Source: Clytia hemisphaerica
Lineage: Eukaryota > Cnidaria > Hydrozoa > Leptothecata > Clytiidae
DNA: 64,000 bases
Assembly (NCBI GenBank): GCA_902728285.1
Contig: CACVBU010000588.1
Coordinates: 434,001 to 498,000 of the forward strand
Direction: 5' to 3'
Below are positions 20,171 through 59,800 of the stretch, piece by piece; positions within the stretch are counted from its first letter, which is position 1, and each line of letters begins with the position of its first letter. Made by a program: the position numbers and the translations under genes. The notes under the pieces were generated by a model, which was not told the DNA's origin, searched no databases, and was given only the letters and a program-made list of their open reading frames with translations.

Positions 20171-23100
20171 TTAAAACATTAGTGACTCACGGTTCCCACG
20201 GAAATTAGGTTGGTTCCATTTCGATTTTTGTCGTCTGATACCATCAACCAAGTGATGTGCTAAACCTGTAGTGACCAACTGAAAAAGAAAACAAATCAAT
20301 ATTTCAAAAATTGGTTTGATAGAAATAAATGGTTCTTTCAGGCATTTTTTCTAGGCACTTTTTTATGTCCATATATCAGCCAAAAAAAGAGTTTAAAAAT
20401 TTTGAAAATCATAACTCACAATCCATATTTCCTATCAAAATCTACCTTTTACGTTGTTAAAAAAAAAACTAATATTATCTACGTATGGCCCCCCCCCCAG
20501 CGGTTTGCGTGAATGCATGAATGGGCATTTTCGGTTGCATGAATGTGTGAAAATTGGAAAAAAAATGCGTGAATGCGTGAATTGAAAAAACTTGCGTGAA
20601 CGTGAAAATTCACTTTTTGATTGCGTGAATACGTGAATCTGGGCTATTTTGTGCGTGAATACGTGAATTTTCCCTATTTTCCACCGATCATTTTCCCGAT
20701 TTTCCAATGTTTCCCCGATTTTTCCCGAAAATTTTCCGATTTCCTGAAAAGTCGGGTTATTGCGTGAAACTCGAGGAAAATTTGCGTGAATGCGTGAATT
20801 TCGAAAAAAAATTGCGTGATTGCGTGAATTGAAGGTCCGCTGGGGGGGGGCCTCACGTATTACTTGGGCGTTGCTCTGGACCCCCTTGAGGGCCTAAAGC
20901 ACCCCCCAAAGACTCTCAAATTCAATGTGGTTAGAATGTGGTTAGAAAAATACCTGTCTTTAATTTGTTTTCCTAGCCATTAGTATTAATGTTAGACCCT
21001 TTTGAGATTTCGAGCCATTAGGAGCTACTTTCGAAGGAAGTATTGATGAATAAAATAGTCAAAATGTACTGATTCTTATAAAAAAAGATGTACTCGTTTT
21101 TAATAGGTTAGACAGACTTTTTTTAAAGATGTGAGAAAATACTCGAAAAGACTCGACTCGATGCGTAACTTGAGATGAGCCGTTGAATTCGAAAGTTCAC
21201 AACCTTTCAACATCCAAGGCCTTTAAAATTATTTTTGCACGCAGTTAAAAAGTAAACATATCTCTGGACCAGAAGATCTCTTAACGGTGGGAAATTATGA
21301 CGTAAAATTGGAGCAATAAATCTTAAAGGTGACAAGTTTAGTCGACTTTTGACTTAGTTTCATTTAATGTTATTTATTTTTAATACAAGCCTTGGAGTAA
21401 AGAATAAGACTTGTTTAAGAGCCTGGCCGAAAAATAATATTCAATAGACAATGATGGAAGTCATACTAACCTGAAGTAAGACCATAGCTCCTCCAACGCA
21501 TACCAAGAGGATCAAGTTATCTTGGTTCAAAAACTTGTCAAAGGTCTTTTGCAAACAACCATCAGTATAGATTACTTGGCTTCGCTCGACATCGCTCTAA
21601 GAAATGATAACACAACTTCAAAATCAGAAGACAAAAAAGAGAAAAGTTTATTTCATCAGTTCGGAAAAATTATCAAATTGGTACAGTGACGCCTAAATAT
21701 CCATGTCGCACATTTAGTAAACAACCCCCTCCACCATCGCTTCCATATCACAACCTTAAAACAACCAAAATAGACCTTTGACGAAACCCACTTAAAAATT
21801 AACTTCTGTAAAATGAAGATTTTGACAATCACAGTTCAGTTTGTTTTGATCTAATAAGAAATCCCTGAAAATTTTGTTTCATTTGGTCTACCAGATCAAA
21901 AGTTTCACTTTCGTTTTCTACAAAATTCCTCTTATTTTGTAAACTTACGATCATTTTCCATACCCCGCCTCGTTTTCATGTAAACCTTTATTGTGAAGCA
22001 ATGAGAAATGCTTTTAATTTGGTTGAATTTTGAAATGACGTCATAAAATTGATCACGTGATAGGTTTCGGGAAAGGTCTATTAGCATAAGTCCTTATCTC
22101 AGCAACTATTTTGAAATCCCTTTTTTTTCATATAAGACCGGAGAAAATAATCTTTAAATTCTAGCCGAAAAAAACAACAAATTATCCGATACACGGAATT
22201 AGATTTTAGTAGCCGACCCTTCTAAGGACTGGGGAATTTAAAATACCAAATGCCGCATTAGGGCAAAATGGGTTTTAAAACACTTTGAAAGTACAAAAAT
22301 AGACGCCATACCATGCCATTGGTCTCATTTGTGGTATATTGTGACCAAAGATTGTAAAAATGCGCAAATTTTCGCCTTATTATCTATTTTTTACCACACG
22401 AACATATCACTAAATGGTTTTTTTAGGGCATTGCTATTTTTCAATATCTAGCGATCGAAATTTCTTCATTGAAACATTTAATAGTGAATCTTACCACTTC
22501 TGGCTTTCGAATACCGTAAGCACATTGCGCATTCAATTCTGTCTTGTACTATAGAGAGAAAGAAGATTGCAGTTTGTAAAAAGATCTGTTCGAAAAAACC
22601 TGACGATTGGCGCTCAAGCTATTGATTGAGTCTATTCCCTTTTCTATTGGCGCTAGAGATGAAAGATTGAAGGCTGAATTAGAGCGCAACACCTGCTCTC
22701 AGCTCCCACTTTCCATTTTCTCCGTTTTGGCAAACTAAGATTTTCTTTTAAAAAAAGGGACTCAATAGAATGTGATTAAAACTTCATCGTAGTTTATCCT
22801 TTAATGGAAATAATAATAATAAGATTATCATACATCTTTGCAGCAGGAGTGTGGTACACTACACTTTTCACCAGACTTGTTTAAGTCATTGGTACAATTG
22901 AAGTAGATATTCCCTTCCCAATCTTCAGGTCCAGCTACTCCACAACATTGCATCTAAAGGTGTGAGAATGTGATTATTTACAAGTTAATTATTTTCCCTG
23001 AAAGGGTCATTAAAATTTTACGACATTGTTGTTTATTCATGTATTCATCCAAAATTTGTAAATAGTGTACATATGATGATGTTTTTGATTTTTAGTTTAA

Positions 23101-26100
23101 AATTCTGTATTCGATAATGAGTGTAAGTTTATTTTACGAAAAGCTTCGTATTTTACTCAGTAAATAAATGTGTTTTTTAAATTAATATACACGTCTTTTT
23201 TTTTTAAGAAACACACTTTTAAGAAACATGAGGCTCAGAATGCCTAAAAACCAAGAAACATCTAAGAAACATGCTGAGGCTGAGAATGAGAAAATAACAT
23301 TTTTCAATTCGGTTTTTTATAAGAACCTTCCAATCAAGGCTAATTATGTCAAAAAGTTTAGAAACATGTAAGAAACATTTAAGGCTCAAAAGGCCGATTT
23401 CTTAAGAAACATTGAGGCTGCTTGGTAAAACTAGTTTCTTAAAAAAAAAAACGTGTATGCTGACGAAGCTTATTGATTGATACAGATTTATGTGATAGTC
23501 TTTGTAACGAAGAAATACATAAAAAAAACACAAAATTAAGGCAAAGTTTGCACAGTTTCACGAATAAAACGAAGCCTCTACACCTCATCAAAATTGACCT
23601 AATCCCATTTAAAACAGGCATCAATTAGTTTTTAGAACGAACGAAGTAATAGTTATCCCATAATAATCCCGCGGCATTATCATATGACATGTTCTATTTT
23701 TGTATTTTATATGGACTGCAAAAGACTTCAGTATAATTTACTAACGGAAGAAAAAAACCATTTTAAAGCATTGGGCTTTCCAGAAAATTTTTGTACATGG
23801 GGGAAGGGTTGTGGAGGATATAATAATTTTTTGAAAATCTACCCCCGGACATTGTGAATTTTGACCCCACCCCCCAGAACAGATCTCACCCCCAGACAAG
23901 CATCAGTTGACTCCCAGACATTCAAAATTACTCCTAAGCAGAGCAAATTTGCCTAAAAAAACAAGGCAAATTTTGAAGATTTTTCACTACAAATTTTTCA
24001 CAGACAAAATATCCAATGTACCCTCCACCCCCTCCCCATGTACAAAAAATTTCCGGAAGAGCCCATTTGAATTGTAGAATTGATTGTTAAGAATTATCAA
24101 CAATAAAAAATCATTGAATTTAAAAATGAATGAAAACCAGGTGCGAAAAACTAATCATTCCATGTTAGAAATGATAAATGCAAAACAGAAACATACCTCC
24201 ATTTGAACCCAATCCATAATGGATTGCAAATCGGGATCATCTCTGTAGTTCGAAATAGTGTCCTTCAAAACGTCTTCTACATTTTTCTTGACCTGTTAAA
24301 ATTCAATCGAATAAAAAAGGAGACGTTGATAGCTCGCAAGATGATGAAGGTATTTCTACAAACTGTTATAAATTTGAGTCGATTGAGCTTCAAAAATCGA
24401 CGGGGGGTGAAAACTCTCAAAACTTAATAAGCGGGGGGGGGGGGTTGGAATGAAAATGTCCCGGGTGGAAACATTTTGAAAAGGAGGCTAATAGCAGAAT
24501 TAGAAAAAAAGAGAGGAACTTTCAAAAACATTTCCCCAAAAATTAATATAATAAGCAGGGGGTTGGAATAAGAATGCCCTGGATGAAAAATTAATTAGCG
24601 GGGGATGGCTACTAGGTACCCGAGAGTATATTAGGATTCAAGGAGGTACTACCAATGAGCTTCAGGGGTATTTTTATCTTCTATCTTTCTCAGCGTCATT
24701 AGGTATTGTTTTTTTTCGTCTCCTGCTTTTTAAAAATGTCTTATTTATTACAATAATCTTATTTTTTCAGTTAAAACAAACTTGTTTGAGCAATGCTTTT
24801 TCTCGCATCATCAAAGGCAGCTTCCTGGCACGCTCTAAGCAAGCTTAGTTCTACTTTTAAACATTATGGAGTCAAAATATGAAAATAGAAATGATAGTCT
24901 GAAGTAGAAATACAGGTTTTATGGCATTGACCTTTAATAGAATTGAGATTTTCTATTTCATGGCCGAGTTGATGTTTCCTGATTGCCCAAAAGATTTTAC
25001 CTTCTCTCGATCAACATAAACATATACTGCTATGGCAACCTCCAATAACAATAACACATCAATAGTGTATTCAAACTAAAAAAGAGAAAAAAAGAAACCC
25101 ATTTTGATTTCATTTACTTTAATTTATAAAAACGAAACGAAACTGAAACATGATAGCAATGTTACCCCCCATTTTGAAACCAATATTTTGAGAAGGACTT
25201 ACTAAATAATTTAATTCCTTACCACAATGTATCATGAAAAATAAAGAAAAATCATCAATTCAGTTTCAGTGTTTGAAAAGTACGTTTTTTGTAGTCACCA
25301 AAACAGAAAACGGATAAATCTTAGAATTATCCTACAAACAAAATGAAATAACTGCTCCCATGCAGTACGTCAAGCAACAATAACTTTTAATAGGAACACA
25401 AAACCGATTTTGAAAAACTATTCCCTTCCAAGATATAGATATTTGAGAGAATTCAGAAAGAACTACTTTGCCTTGGCCCTTGCACATTGTCTGTTATAAA
25501 CTTTTTGAAATATGAAAGTAAGAATTTAAGCAAAATTATTCATGGTCAATACTTAGTTTTGAATCGATCTAGAAAAATATTCTTGTGTCTGAACTAAAGC
25601 TAGTGGCAAAACATTTACTAGCCATAACATAAGAAAGCTTACCGTTCTCAATAAACAAACGTTTTCTCTCAGTGAACCAATACAACCCACGAAAGCTAAG
25701 AAGAACACTATAGATCCAATGATAATGAACAGGTTAGCAGGATCCATGTACCATGGTAATGTATTACCGATTTCCCCAAGTGATTTCTGTGTTTTGGCGT
25801 AAACACCAATCAAAATCATAACAAGCCCAACGATCTAGATATAAAAAAAAACAATTAGTTATTAAATTATTTTGTTTAGGTGTAACATTTTCTTTTCAGC
25901 AAACTCATAAGAATAAGTTGTGGAATTGACTAGATTTTCGAAGTTGTAAGGACGTTGGCACCATGGGATTTTACTTTAGTAAAAATATATATATTTAAAA
26001 AAAGTTCTTACCCAAAAGAGAACATTTAGTGCAAACAGTAAATACTTGATAACCAAGCTGACCTCTGATGGCCCCGTCGATCTGGTTCGCTCCACATTTC

Positions 26101-26107
26101 GGGGCAT
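20171..26107 (-). CDS. Tetraspanin of the TspanC8 type (TSPAN5/14/17/33-like), complete
   Basis: Eight in-phase exons on the minus strand: 26107-26012, 25834-25643, 25075-25001, 24292-24197, 22953-22834, 22548-22495, 21596-21471 and 20278-20171 (stop TAA). The product is 288 residues. TM1 is about residues 17-43 and TM2 about 67-82, followed by CIGSLRENVCLLR, typical of the TSPAN5/14 group. TM3 is about 97-116 and TM4 about 238-263. The large extracellular loop contains CCG (156-158), GPEDW, and eight cysteines (156, 157, 173, 184, 190, 191, 202, 225), the TspanC8 signature, with N-glycosylation sequons at N172 and N178. Family knowledge: TspanC8 proteins escort ADAM10 from the ER and direct its sheddase activity, for example in Notch processing. 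All junctions except those inside exons are phase 0. The last intron carries a word-repeat foldback element at 20486-20854. The start is the first in-frame ATG before TM1. Confidence 0.93.
20486..20854. repeat. Word-repeat foldback element (GCGTGAAT) in the tetraspanin last intron
   Basis: Ends GGCCCCCCCCCCAGCGG / CCGCTGGGGGGGGGCC, flanked by ACGTA on both sides (20481-20485 and 20855-20859). The interior has about ten copies of GCGTGAAT or GCATGAAT, often paired as GCGTGAATGCGTGAAT, separated by TTTTCCCGATTTTCC-like spacers. The minus-strand frames through it are repeat by-products. Confidence 0.7.
23188..23457. repeat. Foldback element, TACACGT...T-run family, AAGAAAC words
   Basis: Left end TACACGTCTTTTTTTTTTAA; the right end runs from a long A-tract into ACGTGTA. 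The interior repeats AAGAAACAT or AAGAAAC about nine times, with AGGCTCAGAATGCC/AGGCTGAGAATG. It lies in a tetraspanin intron. Shares termini with 35732-36021 and 56587-56834. Confidence 0.65.
23772..24064. repeat. Inverted-repeat element with TGTACATGGGG arms
   Basis: The left arm GGGCTTTCCAGAAAATTTTT then GTACATGGGG is mirrored by CCCCATGTAC then AAAAAATTTCCGGAAGAGCC. The interior repeats ACCCCCAGACA, CTCCCAGACATTC and related words. It lies in a tetraspanin intron. Confidence 0.6.
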
Positions 26108-27099
26108 GACTTGATTTGTCATAAATCTTTACCACTAAAAATATCTTTATCACTACTAATTCTAAAATTACAAAAAATTCATTTTGATTGAAGGTCAGAA
26201 TTCCAAGATTAGCCAAACCCAGGGGTACTGTGATTTGCACTACAGCAAAAAAAAAACATTTCAACCTTGCTTGGAACTCCATATTAAAATTAAAGGTTCA
26301 AGCATCTGCTATGCTGCGTGGAAGCTGGGTAGAATGCACTACCTGCCTTATTGATATACTATGAAAAACAAAAATGTGTATGACCTGGAAGGCTCATACA
26401 ATCTGTGGAACCTAGAACCTATGGTATTCTTTGGCATAAGAGCATAAAAAAACATAAAGACATCTTATATTGGAGTATCCAAACTTTTATTTTATAAGTT
26501 CCGAACTTGTTTGACATCAATTTTTGAGTAGATATGGTGGCTAATCAGATAAATAGTGATTCAGAGTGATATAACATAAATTTCCTCCCCTAGCCCTTGG
26601 TTCTATCAATTTCAAAAAAACCTTGTTTTTATAAATGGGGTTAAGCTAACATGACAGTATACTAAAAAGTAGCTTTCCTTTGCTGAGTCCTAAAAGCAAT
26701 AAAAAAAATCTTGTCAGTGATTATCCAAGTCTCAAAAGATGCTGAGGATTAAAAAAAGCCTGTGTGCTTCCCCTTTTCTTTGTAAAATGCCATATCATTA
26801 TGTCAAACTTGACTTCTCTGAAGTGGCAATTTTTGTACAAAAATGGAAAAAAACTGTGGAGCACCTCAAAACGTAGAGAAGTCCATCAGTCAAGGGACAA
26901 AATCGTTTTTTATATGGTCTGATCTTTTACCTTCAAGAGACCATTTTTTAATCTAAATTTCTAGAAAATACACACAAAAAGCAAAAGTGCACTCTAAAAA
27001 TGAAAGAAATCTAATGTTGGCAAACTTTTGAAACGTTTGGATTGTCAACAAAGCACTGCAAAATATCTTCAAATACAAAAAAAATTTATTTCGTCTTAT

Positions 27100-27766
27100 T
27101 ACGGAAGCCAATTAGTGCCATTTAGATTTCCCTTTAACTTTCTAACGACAAGACTAAAAAACTAACGACGAAAATGAAAAATTGACGACGATAATGAAAA
27201 AAAATCTTAATTCGTTTCGTCATCGAAATAACGATACGTAACTTCCAAATTCTCCATTATCATTATAATGAAAAAAAAGTTAAAAAAAGGAATTGCTCAT
27301 TTTTTGTTGTCAAAAAAATCGACGACAAATCTCGAAATAAAAATTGACGTCATAAATTATTGATTAGGGTCTTGGAATAGTGTGTGTAGATAAAACCCAA
27401 TTATTAAGAGATGATAGCCTGTAGACTCAGTAGTAGGCTACCTTGTGCTTGACTACTGTTGACCTGTTGACGCGTGTAGTGTACCCTACTTTACGTAAGT
27501 ATGAGATATAGTATGGACACCATGGTTGTATATATCGATATGTATGGATTCCTTATGCTATATATGTCAGTATGTTGTCCAAAAAAAATGGTTCACATTG
27601 GGCATACGCCTGAAAATACTTCAACCAAATAGTTCCACCGTCAAATTTTTATTTTCGTCATCAGTTTTTTATTTTCGTCGTCAATTTTTTATTTTTGTTG
27701 TTAGTTTTTTAGTTTTGTAGTTAAAAAATTAAAGGGAAATCTAAATGGCACTAATGGGCTTCCGTA
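27100..27766. repeat. 667-bp inverted-repeat element with TACGGAAGCC termini
   Basis: The left arm TACGGAAGCCAATTAGTGCC then ATTTAGATTTCCCTTTAA is mirrored at the right edge with one mismatch. The next 60-80 bp on each side are ACGACGAAAAT-type words (left) and their inverse ATTTTCGTCGT (right). TA ends suggest a TA target duplication. Middle unique, with no convincing ORF. Confidence 0.7.
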
Positions 27767-28273
27767 TCCTATAGCGCCCCCAAGACAACTCTTCACCATG
27801 ATATAAATGCTCTCTTCTAACTTAACTGTCTATGGCCAACAGCCCCCATGAAACATTTCACTTTTTTTCAAAATGGCTGTGCCCACTACTTTTTGCTAAG
27901 TTTCTTAATTAATGAGGGTGCTGATTCTGAATTTAAATGTTGCCAAGCTTGAAAACCCACAGTTTTGTGTAATTTGAGTTCTTGTGTTTCCAGACAAAAT
28001 TCTAAGGCCAAAAAATCATGATTTTAGGTGGGTCTTCAAAATCAAATGAGACCTCCATACCATGAAAGGTCTTTAAACTGAGCAAAAAAAAGTACTAGAA
28101 CAAATTTCCAACTTCCCTAGATCAAAAATTATTGACATCTTTTGACAATTTTGAACAGTACTTACTTACTTTTGGATACTTTTGGATTTGTTTGAGCGTA
28201 CCGCTCTGGCAAGAATCTTTTGATCCACACCACAATCTTCATTCAATCCATAATTCCTGAAGGAAGAAATGGA

Positions 28274-30266
28274 TCAGCAGAGAGATTTCATGTCTAAAAT
28301 TGAGTTTGAGTCAACTCTCCTGCACCCTGTATAACCACGGATTTGGGGTTCATCGGGAATTTTTTGCAAGTGTTTGTCAAGTGCATTTTTGAATTTGTCA
28401 ACAGTTAAATTTTTCAAGTTTCTAATGCTCTTTGGCATTGCATTGAAAAGTTTTGCTCCTTGTATAGTCAGGGTACTGTCGCGTAATTTTGAATTGTTTG
28501 GACCGGCGTATTTGCTAAAACACATTCGTCCTAATCTTGGATGGTCTTTAGATTTGAAGCAATCATTGATATTTGGCACAAGATTTTCCAATATTTTCCA
28601 GGTGTATATGATCCTGTAGCGTTCTCTCCTTCTTTGAAGTGAGTATATTCTAAGCTTCTTTAGACTTTCCCAATAATTTTGGTGTGTTCCTTTTATTTGT
28701 TTCAAGAATGATTTCTGGATCTCTTCAAGTCTTTGAATAAGACTAATAGTACTGGGGCTCTATAACGCTGAGCAATATTCCAGTATAGGGATCACAAGTG
28801 ATTTATAGAGATTGATCATGGTATGTGTAGAGCGGGAAGTGAAGGTACGTAATATCCAAGAAATGATGTTTTTGGCTTTTTCAATTATTGATTCAATTTG
28901 ATGTTTAAATAGACAATCATTGGACATAAGAACTCCCAGGTCTTTAACATATTCCTTTCCTTCAATTTTATCTCCTGATGGTGAGGTATAGTGAGATTCA
29001 TTTTTGATTTCTATATTTGAGCCATAACGTAGCAATTCAAATTTTGCATCATTCAATTTCATATTGTTTGCGATTGTCCATTGATATAAAATCTGAAGGT
29101 CTTGTTGCAATATTTTTACATCTTCAGCATTCTTTATTGACTTGGTTGTGCGAGTGTCATCTGCAAAGGACTTGACGATAGATTGGATAACATTCTCATC
29201 TATGTCTCCAATGAGTATCAGGAAAATCAGGGGTCCAAGTACACTTCCTTGTGGTACACCTGAGATAACTTCTTGGTTGTTTGATTTCACACCATTAACC
29301 ACTACAGTTTGTTGCCTGTCTCTCAAAAAGGACTCTATCCAATTATAGATTTTACCAGTTATTCCTAGCCTTTTGAATTTCGACAGAACAATTGAATGAT
29401 CCACTTTATCGAAAGCTTTAGAAAAGTCTAAGTAAACAACATCTACATTGGTCTCTTTGTCCAAGTAAGTTTAATATAAGATCATGTTGTTCAAGGAGCT
29501 GACTCAGACAAGATCTTCCACTTCTAAAGCCATGCTGATTTGGGTTGAAAAAGTTATTTTCGTCCATGTGTTTGACAATGTGTTTTCTGATGACTTTCTC
29601 AAAGATCTTTATAACGTGTGATGTTAAGGCGACTGGTCGGTAGTTTGCAGCCAGTGATTTGTTTCCTCCTTTGTAGATTGGGGTTATAGTTGATATTTTT
29701 AATTTGTTTGGAACAATTCCTTTTTCCAGACTGTTTTTCCATAGATGGCACAATGGGATGGCTAATTCTTCTTTACATTGTTTCAGGACTATTGCTGGGA
29801 AACCATCTGGACCAGCAGCTGAGGATGGTGATAATTCGTCAATGGCTTTCATTATGTCATTTTCAGTGACTACCATTTCTGATATTTCAGTGGTTTGTGT
29901 GTTGAAAGCTTGATCGTCAGGTGACATGGGTTCACTGAAGACTTTAGCATATTGATTTGAAAGGATGTCAGCCATTTCTTTATTCTTCATTGTAAGGTTC
30001 CCATTTTTGTCTATTAGTGGTCCAATTTTAGTTCTCACTTTTGATTTCTTCTTGGCGTATGCAAAGAAATATTTAGAATTCTTTTTGATTGATTCAATAG
30101 CTTTATTTTCCGCAAACTTTTTTGAATCTTGGAAGGATTTTTGCAATTTTTTTTCGATTTGCAGCAGCTCCTCTTTGATTTTTTTCTTTCGGGTTTGAGT
30201 TACTTTTTCTTTCGGGTTTGAGTTAGTACTGCAGTGTTTTCTACAAGCAAAACAAAGACATACCAC
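28274..30266 (-). mobile_element. Decayed, 5'-truncated non-LTR retrotransposon (LINE) reverse transcriptase
   Basis: The minus-strand frames 30266-29418, 29464-28760 and 28705-28274 together form one RT-containing ORF. Visible RT landmarks in order are AAGPDGFPAIVLK, PIYKGGNKSLAANYRPVALT, LDFSKAFDKVDH, SGVPQGSVLGPLIFLI and the catalytic FADDT. The C-terminal part has the usual LINE thumb/tail spacing. It is broken by one frameshift near 29463 and by an in-frame TAG at 28760-28762, where the following frame continues at once; a Trp codon is the likely original. No endonuclease domain is seen upstream, so the copy is 5'-truncated. The motif set fits the CR1/Jockey group of LINEs, but clade is not certain. 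A roughly 20-nt direct duplication (CTTTCGGGTTTGAGTTA) lies at the 5' edge, about 30187-30228. No host gene function is implied. Confidence 0.9.
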
Positions 30267-31543
30267 CCATCAAATCACCAATTGTTTAGCATACAATGTC
30301 AGATATTGAAATTAAAGAAAGTGGGGTGTCCTTTCACTCACTATTATCTAGACTTAACTGTCAGAGAGCAAAAGGGCTGTAACATTATCAGCAAGGTTTC
30401 TGAAAGAACCAACCCTAACATCAATAAACAAAACATCATTTTGCCAAGACCACTTTGTCTCCCCAAGGACTGGCTACATGTTTTCATTGTTGTTTCATTA
30501 ATGTTTACAAGGGTGGAAATAAAGATGGCATTTGGAGGCTTTCCTGAGAAATAAAAATCAGCAGATTGTATTAAGTGGTAAACATTCACATTAAGGCTTA
30601 TTATTTTGTCTGGTGTACCATTGTTGTTCTTAAATATTTCAATAATATGCCTTCTTATGTCCAATCTGATATCCCCTAATATCTGCTGATGCTTATTCAT
30701 ATTGTATCATAGCAAGCATTGACGATCCTTTCAAACTTTACAAGCACCTTTCAGCTCTACAATCGAGTGGGAAAACATGGAATTTCACATATAATGCAGA
30801 AATTACCCCACAACAACTTATGTTATTAAAAGTTTGGCGGCGTGTACAGTAATTGAATATGACTTTTGCTTGCTCTCCCATTTTAAACTGGCCCTATTAC
30901 CCAACTACATTTGGTTGTAAAATAGTGAGACTAGAGAGTGTGGTGAATATTTTACCAAGTGGTTGGGAATATCTATCAAGCGATCATATTAAATTTGCTT
31001 CTCTTCAAAACTAAAAACAATTATATTCACTCTTCTCTTAGAACAAGCACTTCAAAAGACCATAACATTAGACAGAATCTCAAACTGAAAAATCACCCGC
31101 GAAGGTAAAAAACAATCCTTATTCGGCTGACAGCAAATTATTCTCCTGGGAATAGAGCCGCCAAATGATCAAATCAAAACATTGATTAAGTGTGACGTCA
31201 TAATTACTGCTTTCAGTTTGCGTGTTTTGAAAGTTTGATGTGTGTACTCCGTCTTCGTGGAATTTCTTAATGGCATGAAAACAGAATATGCAATGTCTTT
31301 AAGAACAAATTCCTAAAAGGCTTTTGTTGTTCTTCAAATATTTCCTTTTGGATTAAGAAATTCCATCTTTTATTGTTCTAATGATTATAATATTTATTTA
31401 TAAGATGCTTTGTTGTCTTTTTAATCTTTGTGTAAACTTGCATATGTTTTGCATACATTCCAACTAAATCCAACCACGGCATTTTCGTTCCTGTATTTTT
31501 GCATACAATTCAAGATGGCGGACGCAAAGGCGAAAAGGTCTAT
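30267..31543. other. Gene-free interval left of the array-element fragment
   Basis: Frames on both strands at 30234-30700 lack motifs; they may be LINE 5' remnants or chance. Nothing else recognised. Confidence 0.35.
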
Positions 31544-31924
31544 TTGAAGATCAACTTCCCAAGAAAAAGATCTAAGGGGGAAGCGGAACCCACCTAGATC
31601 CGCGCACCACCGGATAGGCTGTTTCCCAGAAATTTTGCCGGACCTGAAACAATGACCCATTTACATGTGCAAAATCATTTTTACTTTAGCGTATAAACAA
31701 GGCCTTAAAAATCGAAGCGCTGTCTCGAGAATTAAATGACAAACTTTGGTTGGTTGATTTTGGCCGCTGCACGTTTTATTTTGTTTCAGACTTTCAAGTT
31801 TTAATTAATTGTCTTGCGAACTTGATTCAGGTAACTCTCATCCTTGTTGTGCAAATACATCATGTAGATGACTGATGTTGTTTTTTCTGAAAGCTAGATT
31901 TCCTAGTGTGACTAATTGGAAGAA
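31544..31924. mobile_element. Truncated copy of the CAGTTAGTCACACTAG transposon
   Basis: Matches the array units from GAAGATCAACTT onward through the right end (CTAGTGTGACTAATTG), without a left terminus. At the site of the hAT-like insertion in unit A this copy reads AGATCTAA with no insert. Flanking sequence after it is shared with 14098-14170, so the two loci have common ancestry beyond the element. Confidence 0.7.
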
Positions 31925-32141
31925 GACCATATTAGTGGCAAAACGATGGAGCGTTTGACGTCACTCCCGCGACAAGTTACACACGTTATTTGTTAAAATC
32001 CCTTCGGGGGATAGGCGGTTAGGTGGCGGGCGTTCTCTAATCCTCCAATCAACGTCCAGTCATTTTGAATGAAAACAAAAAAGTTAAAAAAGGGCGCTCG
32101 GTAGTAGCTCCTTATTATTCCTCTCTGATAACACCAGGGTC

Positions 32142-34951: not shown

Positions 34952-35557
34952 TTACTTTTTACAGGCTGCATTGTACAGCTGCACAGGTTTTCCATCCCAT
35001 TCTGTATTTTCCACACAGTTTGCAAGAAACAAGGCGACATCAGTTTTGGAAATGGCTTTGATAGACATTCCAGTCTTGGAAGTAGCGTAATAATCACCCA
35101 AAGGATCGCCTTTCAATTCACAAGGACGAACAACTGTATAACCTTTCTCGAAGATAAGAGAATCTGCTTTGTCACAGTCAACGATGTTCTTTCGACCAAC
35201 CACCAAACTAAGCAATAAATTAACAGCAGTGGAGCTACCACCCATTCCTAATGAGGTGATAAAATAACAACGTTTCGGCTTTGCTTTGACGACATTAGAT
35301 GCCAGTTTTTCCATGATACGCACACCAGGACCTCCACCAGCACATGAGATGAGGATATCAACATCTTGACAAACTTGAGCAATGTCCTCTTCATTCAAAG
35401 CATCGCCTTTGATGACAGTCACTTCTGGGTTGTCTTTTTGTTCCACTTTCTCTGGTGTCCGCGCAAGCATTCGTACACTGTATCCTTTATCGAGGAGGTA
35501 ATTAATAAGTGGCACTCCACATCCGCCTGTACCACCGATGACACCCACTAAAACCAT
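34952..35557 (-). CDS. Single-exon atypical SDR / NmrA-like NAD(P)-binding protein
   Basis: Uninterrupted 201-codon minus-strand frame from ATG at 35557 to a stop at 34952. The N-terminus MVLVGVIGGTGGCGVPL has the GxxGxxG dinucleotide-binding loop (G8, G11, G14). RMLART provides an arginine after beta-2, which usually favours NADP(H). The sequence then has a DVDILISCAGGG strand and loop and FITSLGMGG, as in the 'atypical SDR' or NAD(P)-binding family that includes BLVRB-like and NmrA-like proteins. About 200 residues fits that family. No Tyr-x-x-x-Lys active site stands out, so the substrate cannot be inferred. A possible 3' splice site (CAG at about 35574-35576) just upstream would place an intron in the 5' UTR. 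The gene is isolated: a tRNA-like repeat and a foldback element lie immediately upstream. Codon use and the intact frame argue for a functional gene rather than a retrocopy relic. Confidence 0.85.
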   Translation of the reverse strand: MVLVGVIGGTGGCGVPLINYLLDKGYSVRMLARTPEKVEQKDNPEVTVIKGDALNEEDIAQVCQDVDILISCAGGGPGVRIMEKLASNVVKAKPKRCYFITSLGMGGSSTAVNLLLSLVVGRKNIVDCDKADSLIFEKGYTVVRPCELKGDPLGDYYATSKTGMSIKAISKTDVALFLANCVENTEWDGKPVQLYNAACKK

Positions 35558-35705: not shown

Positions 35706-35731
35706 GGAAGCTGGGAGAAGGTGTCACGCTC

Positions 35732-36021
35732 TACACTTTTTTTTTTATAAGAACCAGTAAATTTTTGTTGAGGCTCGGCTGTTCTTATTTTTTTGGCACT
35801 TTGAGCCTCAAATTGTTCTTATCCTGTTCTTATTTCTAAGGCAAATTTGGGGCATTATGGGGTATTTTTGGGTTCGCACCCTAATTTCATTAATCTGGCC
35901 CTTATTTTACTTATAACTCAGCAATTCCAGGCTCAGGGTTGTTCTTAAATTGTTCTTATTTTTTGGCGATTTTGAGCCTCATTGTTCTTATAAAATTGTT
36001 CTTATAAAAAAAAAAAGTGTA
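35732..36021. repeat. Foldback element, TACAC...T-run family, TGTTCTTA words
   Basis: Left TACACTTTTTTTTTTATAAG, right CTTATAAAAAAAAAAAGTGT then A. The interior has about nine copies of TTGTTCTTAT or GTTCTTA interleaved with TTTGAGCCTCA / GAGGCTCGG. Confidence 0.7.
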
Positions 36022-47800: not shown

Positions 47801-50800
47801 AATCTTATTGGCTCATTGAAGCTTTAAAAATTAGTTAAGACGAGATTCATTGTTTCTGAAATCAGTGTAAGAAAATATTTGGACTAAAAAAATCATCATC
47901 GGGCGAGCTTAGAATTTCTTTTGATACTTTTTATAGAGGCTCCAGCAAGGTTTCAACTGAAACTCTCGAATTGAAATTTCAAAGGTTTGAGTTTTATGGA
48001 GATACAATTTTAATATGCAAGTTATTGCTTTTGTTTTCTACTGGAAAGTAATTTTTTTCAGGATGACCTTTAAAAGTTTTAATTACGAGTTTTGCTTTAA
48101 ATTCACACACTTGTCACCTCTGGAATCTTGAACTTCACTTCACTTTTGAGTAGTTGTATATAAGACGGTAACATCGAAATTATGACGATATTTTCCTTCA
48201 GTCTTAAACCGGCTTAAATGCGGGAGGACATTTTCATTTGGTTTCTTTAATAATAGCACTCTTTCCTTGACCTTTCTTGCGCGGCGTTTTTTTTTTGAAA
48301 AAGATGATTTTTTTAAGTATATAAATTTTTATAAAAGAAATCAAAAGACTTTAACGACCAATTACCGACAAATTAAACTCCTGTTTTTCTTTATACCTCC
48401 ATGTTCTTATGCTGTACCAAAAGGAAAAGCGATATAATCATCCATCTATAGTTTAGATGATATTTTCGTTGTTACTTTTCTTGTTGAGGGAATGGGATGG
48501 GTATAATAAACAGTGAGTTTATGTATTTGCACATTTGAGGACTGAAACGATTTGGAACAGCCCACAGTTCTGACCTGCAAAATCGAGGTCGGTGAAAGTG
48601 TGTCCTCAGTCAATCAGGATTTAGAATGCGTCTCCGTCGCAGATAAGTAGATACCAGGTGGAGGAGAAAAAATGTTTCGAGTTATTAAAAACATTCAAGT
48701 TGTAGAGGTTTTCAAGTTACAGGAAAATCTCCTCACTTCGCCTTACTTGAACCAGGTAAAAACACGGGGTTTTATGTTTTATCACATCAAAAACAATACA
48801 TTATAGAGGTTTCCCAAAATTCGATTGTTTTACATCAACTTTGTCATAGATGCAAATTGAAATAATACGTGTAGTAAAGAGTTGAAAAAACTCAAAATAG
48901 CCTGATATTCCTTCAAGCGACCAAAAAAACGTACAATATTTGGGTTATAGAGGCTCCAGCAAGGTTTCAACTGAAACTCTCGAATTGAAATTTCAAAGGT
49001 TTGAGTTTTATGGAGATACAATTTTAATATGCAAGTTATTGCTTTTGTTTTCTACTGGAAAGTAATTTTTTTCAGGATGACCTTTAAAAGTTTTAATTAC
49101 GAGTTTTGCTTTAAATTCACACACTTGTCACCTCTGGAATCTTGAACTTCACTTCACTTTTGAGTAGTTGTATATAAGACGGTAACATCGAAATTATGAC
49201 GATATTTTCCTTCAGTCTTAAACCGGCTTAAATGCGGGAGGACATTTTCATTTGGTTTCTTTAATAATAGCACTCTTTCCTTGACCTTTCTTGCGCGGCG
49301 TTTTTTTTTTGAAAAAGATGATTTTTTTAAGTATATAAATTTTTATAAAAGAAATCAAAAGACTTTAACGACCAATTACCGACAAATTAAACTCCTGTTT
49401 TTCTTTATACCTCCATGTTCTTATGCTGTACCAAAAGGAAAAGCGATATAATCATCCATCTATAGTTTAGATGATATTTTCGTTGTTACTTTTCTTGTTG
49501 AGGGAATGGGATGGGTATAATAAACAGTGAGTTTATGTATTTGCACATTTGAGGACTGAAACGATTTGGAACAGCCCACAGTTCTGACCTGCAAAATCGA
49601 GGTCGGTGAAAGTGTGTCCTCAGTCAATCAGGATTTAGAATGCGTCTCCGTCGCAGATAAGTAGATACCAGGTGGAGGAGAAAAAATGTTTCGAGTTATT
49701 AAAAACATTCAAGTTGTAGAGGTTTTCAAGTTACAGGAAAATCTCCTCACTTCGCCTTACTTGAACCAGGTAAAAACACGGGGTTTTATGTTTTATCACA
49801 CCAAAAATAATACATTATAGAGGTTTCCTAAAATTTGATTGTTTTACATCAAATTTGTCATAGATGCAAATTGAAATAATAGTTGTTAAAGAGTTGAAAA
49901 AACTCAAAATAGCCTGATATTCCTTCAAGGGACCAAAAAAAACGTACAATATTTGTTATAGAGGCTCCAGCAATGTTTCAACTGAAACTCTCGAATTGAA
50001 GTTTCAAAGGTTCAAGTTTTGTGGAGACACTATTTTAGTATGCAAGTTATTGCTTTTGTTTTCTACTGGAAAGTAATCTTTTCAGGATGACCTTTAAAAG
50101 TTTTAATTATGAGTTTTGTTTTAAATTCACACACTTGTCACCTCTGGAATCTTGAACTTCACTTCACTTTTGAGTAGTTGTATATAAGACGGTAACATCG
50201 AAATTATGACGATATTTTCCTTCAGTCTTAAACCGGCTTAAATGTGGGAGGACATTTTCATTTGGTTTCCTTAATAATAGCACTCTTTCCTTGACCTTTC
50301 TTGCGCGGCGTTTTTTTTTTGAAAAATATGATTTTTTTTAAATATATATATTTTTCAAAGTACCATAAAAGCTTAGCCTGAGAATTTATGAGCTTTTTTG
50401 GTACTTGTGCAAAAGCTTTTATTTTGCCATTAAAAGCACCATGTTTACTTTCAAGACGTCATTTGGGGTTTATAGGTTAAAACTTGGTTAATCGACATCT
50501 AAAAATTGTTTGAAAAATATCTTCCTTGTTTAAATTAAAACCTTTGTTGTTGAAAAAAAAAACTTCAAGGGTTTACTCTAGGACGGGAGAGTATGAAATA
50601 TCGTTTGATATTTCCTTTGATTTCCTTTTTCAAGGCCGGGGAAATTACTAATAAATTTTTACTGATTAAGCATAGTTCAAAAATGATCTTGAAATGTCAT
50701 TCTGCTAATGTCATTATTTAACTGTATATTAAATGAGAATTCCAGATCATCAGATTCTTGATGGACTAACTCTATTTTCTGTTAACCACATAACATTCAA

Positions 50801-53800
50801 CAAATTTAATTTTAGAAACGAAACATTTTTTTCAACAACTTTAGTACATTAAATTATACCAGGATGGAATGAGATGTCTTTTTAATTTGATTTTAATGTC
50901 GTTTTGGTGCTCCTCGCATTTTGTTATTTGTTTTCTTGGAAATTCTTTATGTTTGAGCTCTAAAAGCGGCATCCTTTATGATCAAGTGCATTATTTGAGT
51001 AAGAGCTTGCCAACAAGGAGAACTTCAACTTTAATTAATGAACGTTTTTTTTTTTTGTGTTGTTTCGAATCATCTTTACTCATTGTGAAAACACACAACT
51101 CTTGATTTATAAAACTTCCTGATTTCAAATCATCAAGCAATAGACAGCTGATACAATTTCTGGACCTCAGTCTTTTTGAGTTCAAAAAACAACATTGGTT
51201 TCTTTGGTAGAGAGGAAATGAATCTAGAATCTGATCAACAACGAATGTCTGCAACCATGGATTATAGATGTCCAGTTCCAGAGTCACCAATTACAGAATC
51301 GAAATGTTGTGACTTAGAACGAGCACTAACTTTCAAATATGTAACTGATCTAAAATGGAAAAGTGAAACGTTCGAATCAGTAATAATGAGAGAAATTAAA
51401 AGTTCCAAGCACTTGCTCAAAGACGGAGAAAATCACCATAACATTGATTTATTCAAACATTTTCCATCAATGGAGGTGCCAATTGGTTTGCCAGAGATCG
51501 ATCAAGTCAAATATGTATCAATACTTTTGCTTGATTTCTTCGAGTATCTGCACCAATCACAGAATGGATTCGAAACGTTAGATCTAGTCATTCAAACTGC
51601 TGGCAATGGAGATAACACTTTACCACCAGACGTTAATTATGTCAAACCAGCATTTGACAAGATTCCTAAAATCATCAAAACTTTTTATGAAAAATCGAAA
51701 TCCTCGTTGGACGGAATAACTCATACGGAGATTCTTGGTGACGAATTGGATTGCGAGAATCAAATCACACACGATCTGGAGTTGCATGCTTTGAAGCGAC
51801 AATTATTGATGATTATCGGACAATTAAGATTAGCTGCGACCTCTCTACACACGATATTTTTGTAAACTTTTTCCAAAGTAATATTTGAATCAAAAGAAAC
51901 TTTCTAGCTTATACTTAATTTTAAATATTAACTTACAGATAAAGATTTTATCGTATTTTAAATTTTTCTAGAACCTTATGTACAACCAAGGTCGAAATAT
52001 ATTGATAATTCCGGTAATTTTAACGCTTTTAAAGATTTAAAGTTCCGGCGAGAAAGTCGATTTTGGGCTATCTCTTTAATTTAATCGAATATTTCAATTT
52101 GGGATGGGTTGGCAGACTTCCAGGCTATATTCTGAAAAGTCGTATCCTATTGTCAAATTTTTGACGCTGCCTTCCTTTATTTTCTTCTGCACGTAGAAAT
52201 AGAAAATATTTTGAGTATACATTTTTCCTATTATATACTCTTTCAGTTTCTTTGGTTAAACTTGTAAAAACTTCATTGTCAGCATATTAAATGGTGTTAT
52301 TCCCACCAAATATCTTGAGCTGTCTAGACACTTTTCTAAAGTTTCCAAATTCAGCGTAGAGCTAGAATCTATGAATGTATGAATCGGACTATTAAGAAAC
52401 AAAATTACCTTTGCTCTTGTTTGGATACAGTCTGGTTCATTTGTTTCACTATGTATATAATTACTTACCACCAAATCCCTTATGAATACATAGGTAGCAC
52501 AAGAAGTGAGAGAAGACTTGAACATTGAATACATGGGCGCATCTCACATCGCTGACAACGAAAAATCGAAGGTACTCAAAAATATGTTTTATCTAAAAAT
52601 TCAAGGAGTTGTCGGCTTGGTCGATTTACTTATATTATATTATTGTACATTAGAATCTCACATTAAACTCTTTACTTGTTTTTTTTTCTCCATGTCGTTG
52701 AGGTGTGATTGGCTAGGTATTGGTGACTTACAACTTATCAGTGTGTTTTCCTTAAAATTATCCTTCCCAATAGAAAGGTCGAAGTAAGAAGCAAGAATTC
52801 ATTGAAGATGCCATCCTGCAGGATCAAGTATCAAGGATGAAACTGTCAGAAGAAAAAGAAGCTAACCAAAGAGCGTACGGTGGTGGTCCAACACAACCTT
52901 TCGATTCACGAATGAAACGTGTCGATCAATTATTCAACACTAAGTAAGCTCAGTACCTTATTGGAACTAATTTCCGCGGTTTTAATTTTAGCGTTTTTCG
53001 CGGTTTTTCGTCAAAATCGCGAAAATTTGATCCCGCGAAAAATTTTGAGAGTTGAAAACCGCGAAAATTAATTCCCGCGAAATACAATTTTTTCCAATTT
53101 TATCGAAAAATTTGAAAAATCCCTAGGAAAATGAAAGAAATTTGTCCAAAAAAGGGCAAAACCACGAAAATTAAAACCCGCGAAAATTCCAGAATGGAAA
53201 AAACCGCGAAAATTAAAACCTGCGAAATGCAATTTTTCGGATATTTTTTTTCGACCGCGAAAATTAGTTCCCGCGAAAATTAGTTCCAATAAGGTATTCA
53301 TATGTTTCAAAATTGTTTGAAAGAAAATGATCAGATGCCACTCTTTCTACTTATCTGATAAGTTGCCTGATAACCGTGCTCTATTTTAATTAGTTTAACT
53401 TTGTTTTTGATCGAGAGCCTTTACAATTGCCAAGAATGTTTCAAAACCTCTTGTATCCTACCGCAGATATTTAAATAAGGCGTGATACTGTATGAGTGAA
53501 AAGCAGTAGGACTAAAGTCTATTCACGATAAGTGTGCACTCTTTTTTCATTTACCGATAACTTTTGAAGGAATTCTTCAATCTTTATAAATTTGGTATCA
53601 TTGGAAAGATATTAGTTAGTGGAACAATTTAAAATAAAAAAATCTTCAAAAAAATTCTAAAAATGAAGATGAAAATGAAGAAGAAAAAAATGAAGATCTT
53701 GTAGAAAAGTGCTATAACTACCATTTTCCGTGAAGTGAATCCTTGATCATCGAACGTTATTACTGTGAAAAAATTTCTCAAAAATAATCATTCAGTCAAA

Positions 53801-56800
53801 AGATATCAAACAAAGTTATAAGCTGATTGACGTCTAAAAACGCTGTTTTCTGCAGTTTTTTGCTGTTTTTTGGGTTCAATCACTTATTAACTTTGTATCA
53901 TAACTTTATATTGAATAGATATCTTAATGAAATTTCTTCACAGTGATGATCTTCTAAGATCAAAGAATCTCTCCAGTGAAAATGAAAGTTATAGCAGTAT
54001 TCTACAAGATCTTCATTTTTTTCTTCTTCATTTTCATCTTCATTTTTAGAATTTTTTTGAAGATTTTTTTATTTTAAATTGTTCCACTAACTAATATCTT
54101 TCCAATGATACCAAATTTATAAAGATTGAAGAATTCCTTCAAAAGTTATAGGTAAAAGAAAAAAGAGTGCACACTTATCGTGAATAGACTTTAAATAAGA
54201 CTTTCATTCATTGTTTCATCATAAATGAAAATTAAATGCAGGTAAATCCCTCAGTTCGTTTTGAATTCAATTTGAGTTATCGCCTTATCGAAGTCCAACA
54301 GATTTGTTAATAAAAAAAAAAATCAACTAACTTGATGCAACATATGCATAATATTCGCCAATGCACCTTTAAAGACTTTAAACCGACATCCTAACAAATG
54401 GTTGGGTTTGAGATTACATGTCGATGAACAGACTTTAGAAATTTGATGTCGTTCGGCTCTGTAAATCCGGATCCAATCTCCTTTCTGTCGCTCTTAATGT
54501 AAGGGTTGACAGATGTACATAGGAAGATGTGAAGAACAAAGAAAATTAAATGAAAGGCATTGGTAAAGTAACGAAGCTGCATAAGACTGCTATTGGTGGG
54601 AAAATGTACTAAATTCTAATTGTGCGAAGCTCAACACTTAGTGTTTTGAGCAGTCTATGCTCGCTTACCCGGGCCGCACTGATGAGCCCTGGGAAACACA
54701 TGTCTGCGAATAGATATTAATAGAAACCAAAAAAATATATTGGACAAAACAAAGGATTTGTTTTTTTTGTTCTTTTAGATCGATGGTCACAGGAACTCAT
54801 GAGGATTTATCGAATCGTTTTCGTTTCTCGGCTCGTATTTTGTCGTTAAACGGTCGTGACGCGTTACGAGAATTGAACGGGTTTTTCTTTATTGTTGACA
54901 ATACTTTGACTTTATACGAATTCCGACAGTTTGGTTCAAGGTATTTATTTTAATTCGTCAGTGATATTTAATATAGTGGTATTTTGATTAGAAGGTATAG
55001 GGAAGTTTCAGGCTTTTCCCTTACCTTACATAATTAAAAAGCTCCAATTTTTCTGCCTTTAGACCTAAAACCGTGTAGTTGAATTTCTAACAACAATAAT
55101 TCCCGTTCCTATACCTGGAAAGAAGAACTTTCAATAAAATGTATATGGTGTCATGTTTAAGACTTTCCGTCAAGAAACACCAAAGTCAGTTACAACAATT
55201 CAAAAATTTATTTTAAACGTCCTTGCCAAGATAGCATTTTCTACTATTAGGGTTCACAAGTTTTAGAGCGGGAAGGATTCATATAATTCAGCAATAAAGG
55301 TCGAAAAGATTTTTTTAACTAGTCCATGTATACCGTCGTTTGGCATAAGATTCCATTTATCGGACTTAGATTCCACTATTAATTTTCAAGCAGGGTAGTT
55401 GAAAAACGAGTTTTTTTTAAGTAAACACAAGATTTTCCGAACCCTTTTCCATCTCATGGTCATTTCCCGACCCGGGAAAAATAGCGGAAATTTTCGGAAT
55501 CTTTATCCGGGAAGCGATATCTTATGCTAAACGGCGGTACATCTCATGTTTAAAGGGCTAATGCGACCCCATTTATTCAACGTGGACAATATTCTCATAT
55601 CTCCGGATTCCGTAAAAATCGTCAATATCATTTAATGGACATTGGTACGGGTAAAAACTTGACATTTGACACGAAGAACCAGCCATCACTATCTGACGGA
55701 TTGAAAGCGAAAAGTACGATCACGATACGTATCACAGACACAGACGACGAGGAGACACGTAAAAAATTACTTTATCACGGTTGTAAAACATCAAAAGAGA
55801 AAGAAATGGTGAAACGATTTGTCGATGATTACATGAGAGCGGAGACAAATGATTCGATCGTTGCGTTGAAGCAATTACAAGGTATCCATTCTTATTTTCT
55901 TCTACCTGTAACCATTTTTCATTTACAAATGTTCCCGATGTTTGTTCACTGCCGTGGAATATCACACCAACAGCTATTGTACCGAACATGGTATTATTAC
56001 ACGTTGCGATTCAATATGCCGTTCTTATTTCTTTTACCTGTGACCATTTTTCCCGATGTTTATTCACAGCCGTGGAATATCACAGCAGTAGCTATTGCAA
56101 GGAACAGGGTATTACACGTTGCGATTCATTGTGTTATAGATGGGGGTAACCCTTAGAAACGGTGACATCTTTTTCTCTAAAATTTTGTTCAGAGGGACCC
56201 TGCGAATAAGGCATGGCAAAAGTTTTCATGGCCAAACGACTGACGTTCCAGGCAAAACACTAACCTCAAAGAAGGCAAAAAAATGATATTTTTCAAAGCC
56301 TAATCCAAAAATAATTGATACCATATATTCATAGGATGAAATTTTGAGCAAAAAAGTACACTACGACATTTTCCTTACTGAAACACACAAAGAAATACAG
56401 TGAAGTAGCTCTGTAAGGATTGATTCGTGTTCGTGGGTTTCATCTCAACAAAGAACTAAGTAACCACCTGCAGTTGTAACGAAAGATGCCAAGGATAGAT
56501 CCTAAGGGTTAGCTTTTCAAATCACATGTTAGTAAATCTTTCAAAATGAGGCATTCGCTGAATTCAAAATAACTTATGAAAAGGTCTACACGTCTCTTTT
56601 TATAAGAACATCCAAACTTTTTGAAGCCTTCGGATGTTCATAAATTTTTGAGTTTTAAACCTAAAAATGTTCTTAAGATGTTCTTAATTTCACTATTTTG
56701 TGAGTATTTTGTGCATTTTCCTAAGAAATTTGGTGTTTTGGAGCTAATGAAATATGTTCTTCACTTGTTCTTAAAATTTTGGCCATTGAAACCTTATGTT

Positions 56801-59800
56801 CTTATGTAGTTTGTTCTTATAAAGAAAACGTGTAATAATTTCTTCACGTAATTAACTAAAAGGGAAATGCACCTTATTGAAAAGTCTCAGTAGTCTCAGT
56901 GATATCATGTTAAGGAACAAATATTCAGAGATCGCGTTATTTATTGCAGTTTCCCTGCAGATACCAAGTTTATTCATCGGATGATGCTTTTATCGTGAAA
57001 ATTATTGACGAATATCGACAAGGTTTGCCTGGCCGACTCCGCTCTAGGGTTCATATTTGCTTGCTATTTACTATAGTGCTTACTCTGATGGGACTAATTT
57101 TCCAAAATTCCAATTTATGAGGCCCCCAGTCACCTTTCAAATCACGCAAAAAAAAATTTCCAAATCACGTTATCACGAGTTAAAATTCTGTTCTATCACG
57201 ATCACATTGATCACGATGGTTCCTCCGATCATGCAATCACGCACTTCAAAATCTTATATCACGAAAATCACGAAATCACGAAAACGCCAATCACGCCATC
57301 ACTGGGAGCCTCATTAATTAAGAGCTTTAAGAGACTGGTTTGTATTTTGATGTTTTGTAACTCTGGGACTGGTAGAATGTTTATTAAAAACTGTACAATA
57401 CCACTTTTCTTCGAACTCCACATGAAGATTAATTTTACTTTAACAATATTCTTGATTTCGAATTTCAACTCGTTTCTAGCCAAAATGCGCCATTCTCTTA
57501 AAACACGTGGAACGAAGATGATGACGTCATTATTTTACCATTTCAAGATGGTAGACAAATCAGGAGATGGTTTGTTGAGTAAAGAAGAAATCAAAACGAC
57601 ATTTCAGAAATTTCGCGTCCAAGTACAAGAGCACGTAAGACATCTTTACTCGACGTATTAAATATGGCTTCTTTAAATTTCTTATGTCAAACACATAAGA
57701 ATGATAATCTGTCTGTTGGTATAATGAATTTTTCCTCCTCGACCTCTTCCAATTGAGCCACAAGTACAGAAATGTGGTTGTTTGACTTATCTGGCACTCG
57801 ATGTAGGATTTTCTCTACGTTCGTACTGCTCTAATAGTCGGAATCTGGAATGCGGTACTTCGCCAGACCTCGTCACCGGTTTGTATCCGGGGATTTGCGG
57901 GTCCAACTGAAATCTTTTTAACTTTACGCGCAAGGGTACCTTATCGGTCAAAACTTAGTCGGCCCTAAGTGAATAAATTTTGGCTTGGTGACTAAAATTA
58001 GGGCCGACTAAAAATTTGGGTAGACTAAAAAAATTTGGGCCAAATTAACTGTAAATAGAACCGCTTAGGCGGCTCTTAGTGACTAAATTTTAACGAGGTG
58101 ACTAAAATTAGGGCCGACTAATAATTAAGGCCGACTAAGTTTTGGCCGATAAGGTACCCTTGCGCGTAAAGTTGAAAAGATTTCAGTTGGACCCGCAAAT
58201 CCCTCGATTGGGGGTGCGGCACATTAAAGGATGATGAATCGCCAATCCGCCATCACAATATTACTAAGATCGTCCCTTTGACTATACCACTGCATAGAGA
58301 AGGATAAAATAAACTTTTCATTATTTTTAACTGCTTATACATGTTTTTTTTTTATAAGCAAGTGTATGCCCCTTGGTCAGGCTCGTGTATGCTTAAGTTC
58401 TCAAAGCATCCAGGCATAGTTTATGCTTATTATATGCTTAAGAATTATGCTTATGATTCACCCCGAGCCAAGTTTTTTAATGAAATTTCAGAAATTTTGT
58501 AAAAAATTTGTTCAGATTTTGGGAGCAGTGGAATGTAGCTATTAATATTAACCCTAAATTTCTACGAAACTACAGAATGACCCGTTGAAATGAGAAAAAA
58601 AAAAGATCAAAATAAGTTATTCCAATTCTTCCGTCAAAAAAGAGGCAATGAACTTTAACGTTGATGTTTTCAATTTCTTTTTTTAGGAATTCAACTTGAT
58701 ATGGAAGCTTATCGATGAGAATAATGATGAATTTTTAGATTACGGTGAATTCACACGTGGCTTCTTCGGTGAGATGACCGAGCATCGCAAAAAATGGGTT
58801 CGCAAAGCATTCACTAGGCTGGATACATCTTCAAGTGGTGTAGGAGAGGCTACCAATTTTTACAAATTCTTCTGTCCATCCAAACACCCGTCTGTCATCA
58901 AAGGTATCTTACATACAAAGAATTTATTTAATTCCAAGATATGGGGAATTCGGACTGTTTTTTCACTGGGACTTCCAAAATGAAGAAATAGCATACTTAT
59001 TTTGACTCTTTGTTTTTATATTGCACTAATCTTCACTTTTTCATACACTTTTATTTAACATAATCATACCGAGTTGCTTTATCCTAACCTGATAACAGAT
59101 CGTCGCGCACGATAAACCTCTGAAGGCGCTTGAAAATCATCCATAAGGAAAATACTCATAACAGGAATCTTGTTACGTGCTGCGATGGTAAAAATTGAAC
59201 TTTTTTCTGATACAGCGCCCTTTTTTTAAACACAATCACGCAACTTTGTTGATATTCCCATTCCTTTGAAACGGTCCTTACAAATTCGAGATACCATGTT
59301 CGTCAGATTGTTTATTTTCACACATCGCTTTAGAGCTTCTGCGTGGTGTGCAGAAAACAATAATGATCTGATTTCAGGTAACTTTAACCTATCCCCAATA
59401 GATGTGGTGTTCTTCAACTCATCTCCATGTATTTCTTTAGGTGAATTGAGTGAAGAAAACTTAATGAACAATATGGAAGAAATATTTCAAATCACCAGGC
59501 GTAAACGGGATATACACTACTCGGTAAATTAACTATTTCAATAAAATTTCAAACCACAAGAAATAACTTAGCTTAGATCGGTAGAAAATAAGCCTTCACA
59601 TAGTTCACGATTCGTATGTTGGGCCTGTTTTGGGTCTGACAAATATAGAATTTTACCATAAGATTGGCGATGGATATGTGTTAGATTTTACTTCAATTTG
59701 AATATTCAGCTTTAAAATTTTTGCCTTTAGCTTCAAAATTTTACGAATTTATCCGACGAGGATGAAATTTATAGAATATGTATTTTTTAGGGTTGTTTAC

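Follow-up and report, generated by a model that had tools for sequence, protein, structure and literature searches.

The window analysed here, a stretch of 64,000 nucleotides from Clytia hemisphaerica, holds eight short elements with inverted ends whose interiors are rich in one short word. The original prediction had described such elements as unrelated, which is wrong, as the eight fall, judged by their common ends and layout, into three lineages. The CAC lineage (ends TA-CACGT, a T run and TAAG) comprises element 23188 (family F1; 23188–23457, + strand; word AAGAAAC), element 35732 (family F2; 35732–36021, − strand; word AAGAAC, read on the − strand), element 56587 (family F5; 56586–56836, − strand; word AAGAACAT on that strand) and a cut-off element at 58338–58475 (− strand; word TAAGCATA on that strand), together with families found in flanks. 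F1 and F2 were studied as consensus sequences, F5 was aligned with the other CAC families, and the cut-off element shows the 11-bp-step pattern. The GGCC lineage (ends GAGGCCCCC..CAG) includes element 20486 (20488–20856, + strand), with the word TGCGTGAAT in a single orientation and a TIR that is short and rich in GC, the first word lying 3–4 nt inside, and element 57118 (57119–57312, − strand; word CGTGATT, corresponding to ATCACG on the + strand), which was compared with 20486. To the CCTTAT lineage (ends TA-CCTTATYGG) belong element 52954 (52954–53296, + strand), whose word CGCGAAAATT is arranged in 16-bp steps and is contained in the TIR, and the element called 57890, which corresponds to positions 57937–58156 (+ strand; word GACTAA, GGCCGACTAA). 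The outer 52-nt arms of the latter are foreign to the genome-wide family, the relatives aligning with the query from 50–53 to about 272 only. Two further loci, L054 and L085, probably hold additional CCTTAT members. The prediction that a copy of the word lies within the terminal repeat or beside it proved right for all eight elements.

The elements have the features of MITEs, i.e. they are short (0.19–0.37 kb), present in many copies, bounded by inverted ends and devoid of a transposase gene. The genome material consisted of a 417-Mb assembly (951 contigs), used for targeted searches and for about 298 kb of loci. More than 1,000 first-look candidates were obtained for six of the nine families searched (2,202 for 20486, 1,370 for 23188, 3,409 for 35732, 1,080 for 52954, and 2,266 and 2,211 for two others), and 768 (57890), 301 (57118) and 213 for the remaining three; these numbers, which span 301–3,409 for the eight word families searched, are not copy counts, since scoring was limited to some 40 places in each family. 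Scored identities range from 97–99% (52954, F3) down to 80–88% (57118, itself at 81–88%, and most of 57890); 40 places each gave 92–96% for 20486 and 97–99% for 52954, both apart from the element itself, and mostly 96–99% for 23188. The CAC lineage makes up 2.8% of 244 kb of flanks, which are not a random sample. As to possible target-site duplications, both ends were located in 22 of 42 GGCC copies, and 21 of these 22 have direct repeats of 5 nt or more in their flanks, a count made without a random control; the repeat measures 6 nt in nine copies, 7 nt in eight, 8 nt in three and 9 nt in one, as compared with the 8-bp target-site duplication of hAT elements. CAC and CCTTAT elements begin and end with TA, but the search pattern itself included TA, which is identical on both strands.

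Word excess and conservation

Word excess was determined with newly set element borders by comparing the count of the best exact 7-mer on one strand with 1,000 dinucleotide-preserving shuffles; only one strand was counted because inverted arms otherwise enter twice. None of the 1,000 shuffles reached the observed count for 20486, 23188, 35732, 52954, 56587, 57118 and 57890, and the same was true for the cut-off element at 58338–58475, which had not been listed before. Of the ten main elements for which a single-word interior had been claimed, seven thus bear out the claim; the other three, 3223, 27100 and 39900, show no excess at p<0.05 in the one-strand test (844/1000, 619/1000 and 237/1000 shuffles, respectively). 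By eye, 39900 resembles a decayed array. Likewise, none of the supposed partial cases 16115, 46560, 62385 and 62855 exceeds its shuffles at p<0.05 in this test (54, 373, 375 and 439 of 1000). Among ten control foldbacks of the window one passes the one-strand test (32142, consisting of nested hairpins). A two-strand pair count, the only setting in which 3223, 27100 and 39900 lie above shuffles, was given up as the principal test, as its values are raised by inverted arms and several word-free control foldbacks exceed their shuffles as well.

The original prediction was to fall if genome-wide consensus sequences lacked word enrichment. In the consensus sequences of six families, each built from the 12–30 best-scoring copies, the words are retained, the best 8-mer occurring 4 to 14 times, and 0/1000 shuffles reach this number in all six; the consensus of 20486 (30 copies) contains 11 TGCGTGAAT. 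The prediction withstands this check.

The way in which words change differs from that of the sequence between them. Changes private to one copy affect both to the same extent (67 in 385 word columns, 190 in 1,103 spacer columns; six families), whereas shared changes, defined as seen in at least 3 of 12 (4 of 30) copies, number 1 in 385 word columns versus 50 in 1,103 spacer columns, with an odds ratio of 17.6 and p = 2.6e-5. Under four alternative settings, p was 5.7e-5 (twice), 2.2e-4 and, as the weakest, 0.032. The sample consists of best-scoring copies, two of the 57890 loci (L085 and L089) overlapping. An earlier version of this test, in which words were defined by the majority consensus, was discarded and redone with words taken from the copies. 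Words decay after insertion, yet hardly change in those lineages that are copied. The number of words in single copies lies below that of the consensus, never above it. Of the four insertions that measure 5 nt or more, three are tandem duplications of one unit, and locus L069, a relative of 57890, carries 11 TTTAGTC words.

Different words on a common spacing

Four CAC families, F1 to F4, carry the words AAGAAAC, AAGAAC, AAGGAAC and AAGAAT at seven common sites. In their consensus sequences (from 12, 12, 5 and 8 copies), the seven forward sites follow one another at steps of 15, 32, 11, 95, 11, 34 (F1), 14, 32, 11, 115, 11, 34 (F2), 15, 33, 11, 115, 12, 34 (F3) and 15, 33, 11, 94, 11, 34 (F4). 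The family word occupies 6/7, 7/7, 6/7 and 7/7 of these lattice sites, respectively, and in each of the four families the far TIR carries the same word as the interior. When word cores are compared pairwise, 72 of 84 pairs of sites from one family are identical, but none of 42 pairs formed by the same site in two families. The sites were located by each family's own word, one further F4 site being left out; that seven sites occur at matching steps in every family argues that no homologous site was missed. Exceptions are one off-lattice AAGAACC in F1 and, on the lattice, one AAGGAAT in F3 and one TAGAAAC in F1. The difference between the words can be read as an inserted base or as substitutions, and we limit the claim to that of a different word; the 11-bp step is unchanged across the families, which favours substitutions.

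The three bases following TAAG agree within an element at 0.48, compared to 0.22 after shuffling (0/2000; 24 CAC elements, 20 from flanks and 4 from the window). A further word, TAAGCAT, occurs together with a TAAG 11 bp further on; the pattern yields 295 matches, compared to 115 in the reversed control, and among the 100 matches listed, about three quarters have TAAGCAT as their first word by eye.

In the GGCC lineage, the two families differ in the base after CGTGA. In the consensus of 20486, with its 17 sites all in forward orientation, A occupies this position at 16 of the 17, whereas in 57118 it is T at 12 of 12 sites (Fisher 2.5e-7, with non-independent sites and one cut-off 57118 site uncounted). 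Single copies give the same picture, with A in about 92% of 477 sites (20486) and T in about 98% of 117 sites (57118). The gaps between sites are 8, 22, 8, 22, 8, 19, 6, 23, 8, 22, 8 in 20486 (first 11 of 16) and 23, 8, 22, 8, 18, 9, 6, 23, 8, 22, 8 in 57118. Spacer sequences compared between the families are at the level of random pairing (0.44 versus 0.40), and spacers of a single element do not resemble each other more closely either (0.40 and 0.42 versus 0.40 for random pairs). Orthology of individual spacers was considered and is unsupported, 26 of 120 pairings being equally good; hence the kinship of the two families rests on ends, word and gaps.

For the CCTTAT lineage, CGCGAAA recurs in 52954 at steps of 16, 26, 16, 87, 16, 26, 16, 35, 16, and GACTAA in 57890 at steps of 19, 16, 17, 56, 19, 16, 17. 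This may represent a third, albeit weaker, case of a word switch.

Putative binding sites and alternative explanations

In the explanation that we consider reasonably probable, the interiors of these MITEs, taken as short non-autonomous cut-and-paste transposons, would be arrays of binding sites for one element-encoded, sequence-specific DNA-binding domain. The words would then be sites of a transposon-encoded domain, with the TIR copy counting as one site in the CAC and CCTTAT lineages; as the word is also found in the TIRs of these two lineages, the most likely binder would be an autonomous relative's transposase or a protein acting as its partner. In many cases two sites form a pair at a lineage-specific distance (about 11 bp in CAC, 8 bp in GGCC and 16–17 bp in CCTTAT), and such pairs, nearly all in one orientation, would suit a dimer or a multi-domain protein. 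A MITE with more sites could capture more of a limiting transposase, so that selection would fill the interior and keep both sites and spacing, while new units may come from tandem duplication. If the specificity of the protein shifts, those lineages whose sites follow would be the ones copied, and the outcome would be sister families that differ in the word but not in its spacing. The earlier suggestion of arrayed protein-binding sites gains indirect support from sequence comparison: words and spacing are kept, words appear to have switched together, including the TIR in CAC, and changes in source lineages are depleted within words. Several observations were counted against this explanation, among them the exceptional words of F1 and F3, the unsupported orthology of the GGCC spacers and a search for a binding protein or autonomous partner that found neither (see below). 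The long spacers of the CAC families give a mixed signal, with raw identities at the same position between families of 0.70 (first) and 0.57 (second), and of 0.67 within families as against 0.58 across; furthermore, a second motif in these spacers (GAGGCTC / CATGATG) is also family-dependent.

Alternatively, slippage, template switching or gap repair at hairpins could copy sub-terminal sequence inward and homogenise the words, with no need for binding. Such a process, which the original prediction had also proposed, would be in line with the one-unit duplications among the insertions, with the 11 words of L069, with the direct orientation of the words, which suits tandem duplication, and with the CCTTAT units, which begin within the TIR. 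It is at odds with the depletion of shared changes in words, and homogenising tracts would need to have the size of a word. Moreover, because families with different words have a common layout and the spacers within a GGCC element resemble each other at the random level only, inward copying alone does not explain the switches. We thus retain it as a source of extra units and regard it as an improbable explanation of the arrays as a whole.

The words might also bind a host protein or an anti-silencing factor of the VANC type in place of the transposition machinery, the arrays serving to protect or activate the element. VANC proteins are reported to bind 9-mers arrayed in VANDALs, the units of which diverged together (PMC5735166), and the words found here are of similar length. 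The presence of the word in the TIRs of CAC and CCTTAT points instead to recognition of the ends, so that we hold this alternative to be rather unlikely. Finally, that each family stems from a recent chance founder with a simple repetitive interior of its own, copied many times, fits the youth of the families (four of six at 96.9–99.3% to their consensus), but is very improbable given that words are depleted of shared changes and that different words lie on one layout across families, which for CAC contradicts it.

In its wider form, the preferred explanation of element-encoded binding would make MITE families a record of the history of a transposase recognition code, in which a lattice stays fixed and the word is rewritten everywhere at once. 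This would apply at the least to CAC, where four or more words are involved, and to GGCC, where there are two, and apparently also to CCTTAT; we see the chances of this broader claim as evenly balanced. If it is true, the lattice reflects protein geometry and the word specificity, and sister MITE families form a natural series of specificity switches. Within a single genome, many young copies reveal the word, its spacing and its switch in several lineages, which makes it testable how a transposase can alter the sequence it recognises and still keep its substrates. The explanation would also offer a reason for the wide spread of some MITEs, whose whole length would serve as a landing strip.

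An autonomous partner with the same termini, which had been proposed as a check, was not found. Among TIR ends of 52954 that continue with a base other than that of the MITE, 26 in number, there was no facing pair nearby, and Pfam revealed no transposase in the 30 of 136 flank reading frames scanned. DDE_Tnp_4 transposase genes are abundant (486 candidates, of which 150 were scored, many with open frames), but their survey likewise yielded no partner. Retroelement reverse transcriptase is also present, genes appear interrupted by eye, and fragments in the flanks match GPCR, amiloride-sensitive channel and OATP families, all of which points to an animal genome.

Relation to known transposon systems

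A concerted word switch in MITEs is not described in the titles and abstract openings searched, and neither is a small MITE filled with words that lie in one orientation on a fixed lattice and are switched from one sister family to the next. Still, the original statement that ordinary MITEs do not show word-filled interiors was too strong in view of Galileo, Tetris, hAT elements and VANDALs.

Tetris, a foldback element of Drosophila, contains tandem repeats in its interior for which an origin from the termini is possible (PMC4079207). The likeness lies in a foldback element with internal repeats; it differs in having 220-bp units that feed satellites, and its account, as far as available, mentions no word switch. 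Galileo, a member of the P superfamily in Drosophila, has several sites for its THAP transposase in tandem repeats of the TIRs, and it has been proposed that selection for affinity or specificity favours such multiple sites (PMC3688188, PMC3573991). It is likewise foldback-like, with repeated transposase sites to which the words described here would correspond, but its TIRs are long and consist of units of about 210 bp, and the text available contains no word switch at fixed positions, whereas the elements described here measure 0.2–0.35 kb and are filled by words of 6–9 bp in one orientation. The long TIRs of tandem repeats that define Drosophila Foldback and Galileo are absent here; the inverted ends are short and the words have one orientation.

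In Hermes (hAT), subterminal repeats are bound by the BED domains of the transposase (PMC10368747). A short motif repeated inside both ends is common to both cases, but in hAT elements the motifs are few and near the ends, while here they fill the element from end to end and nearly all point the same way. VANDAL elements of Arabidopsis carry short motifs arrayed in non-coding DNA and bound by the element-encoded VANC (PMC5735166, PMC10398659). The motifs differ between related elements and their units diverge together, and family-specific short motifs that are arrayed in non-coding DNA and change together are found here as well. In contrast, VANDALs are kilobase-sized plant elements with tandem repeats instead of a fixed MITE lattice, and VANC removes DNA methylation. 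Membership in none of these groups is established for the elements of the window; what they have in common with Galileo, Hermes and VANDAL is the underlying logic.

Additional inverted repeats of the window

The foldbacks at 17247-17509 and 55331-55539, which have the common end TACCGTCGTTTNG..ATAAGATTCC, are assigned to another family, and show no word excess when the best exact 7-mer on one strand is compared with shuffled sequence. A near-perfect hairpin of 681 nt is found at 53513-54193, with 88% complementarity between its arms and relatives at three loci elsewhere in the assembly (L077, L039 and L061). The GACTAA-word element of the CCTTAT lineage at 57937-58156 is flanked by outer inverted arms of ~52 nt (57885-57936 and 58157-58208). 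Its genomic relatives lack these arms, and the arrangement is read as an element nested in another inverted repeat.

Internal motifs of the CAC lineage

In the spacers of CAC elements a second motif, GAGGCTC/GAGCCTC, is observed (e.g. L071:2530-2798 and window 23188-23457), which is replaced by CATGATG in family F4. The copies are partly inverted, and hairpin pairing between them could occur. In family F3, the CCTTAT-type end-like stretch TACCTTATTGGGACTAATTT sits mid-element (L016:2637-2927) and is likewise present in the consensus of 5 copies; it probably represents an insertion into the source element.

Coding sequences

Within the window, two overlapping reverse transcriptase fragments (RVT_1 match; 28760-30266, minus strand) and a 201-aa open frame matching NAD(P)H-binding NAD_binding_10/NmrA-like proteins (34952-35557, minus strand) were identified. 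Genome-wide, DDE_Tnp_4 transposases are abundant (486 candidates); many have long open frames and these transposases may be active.
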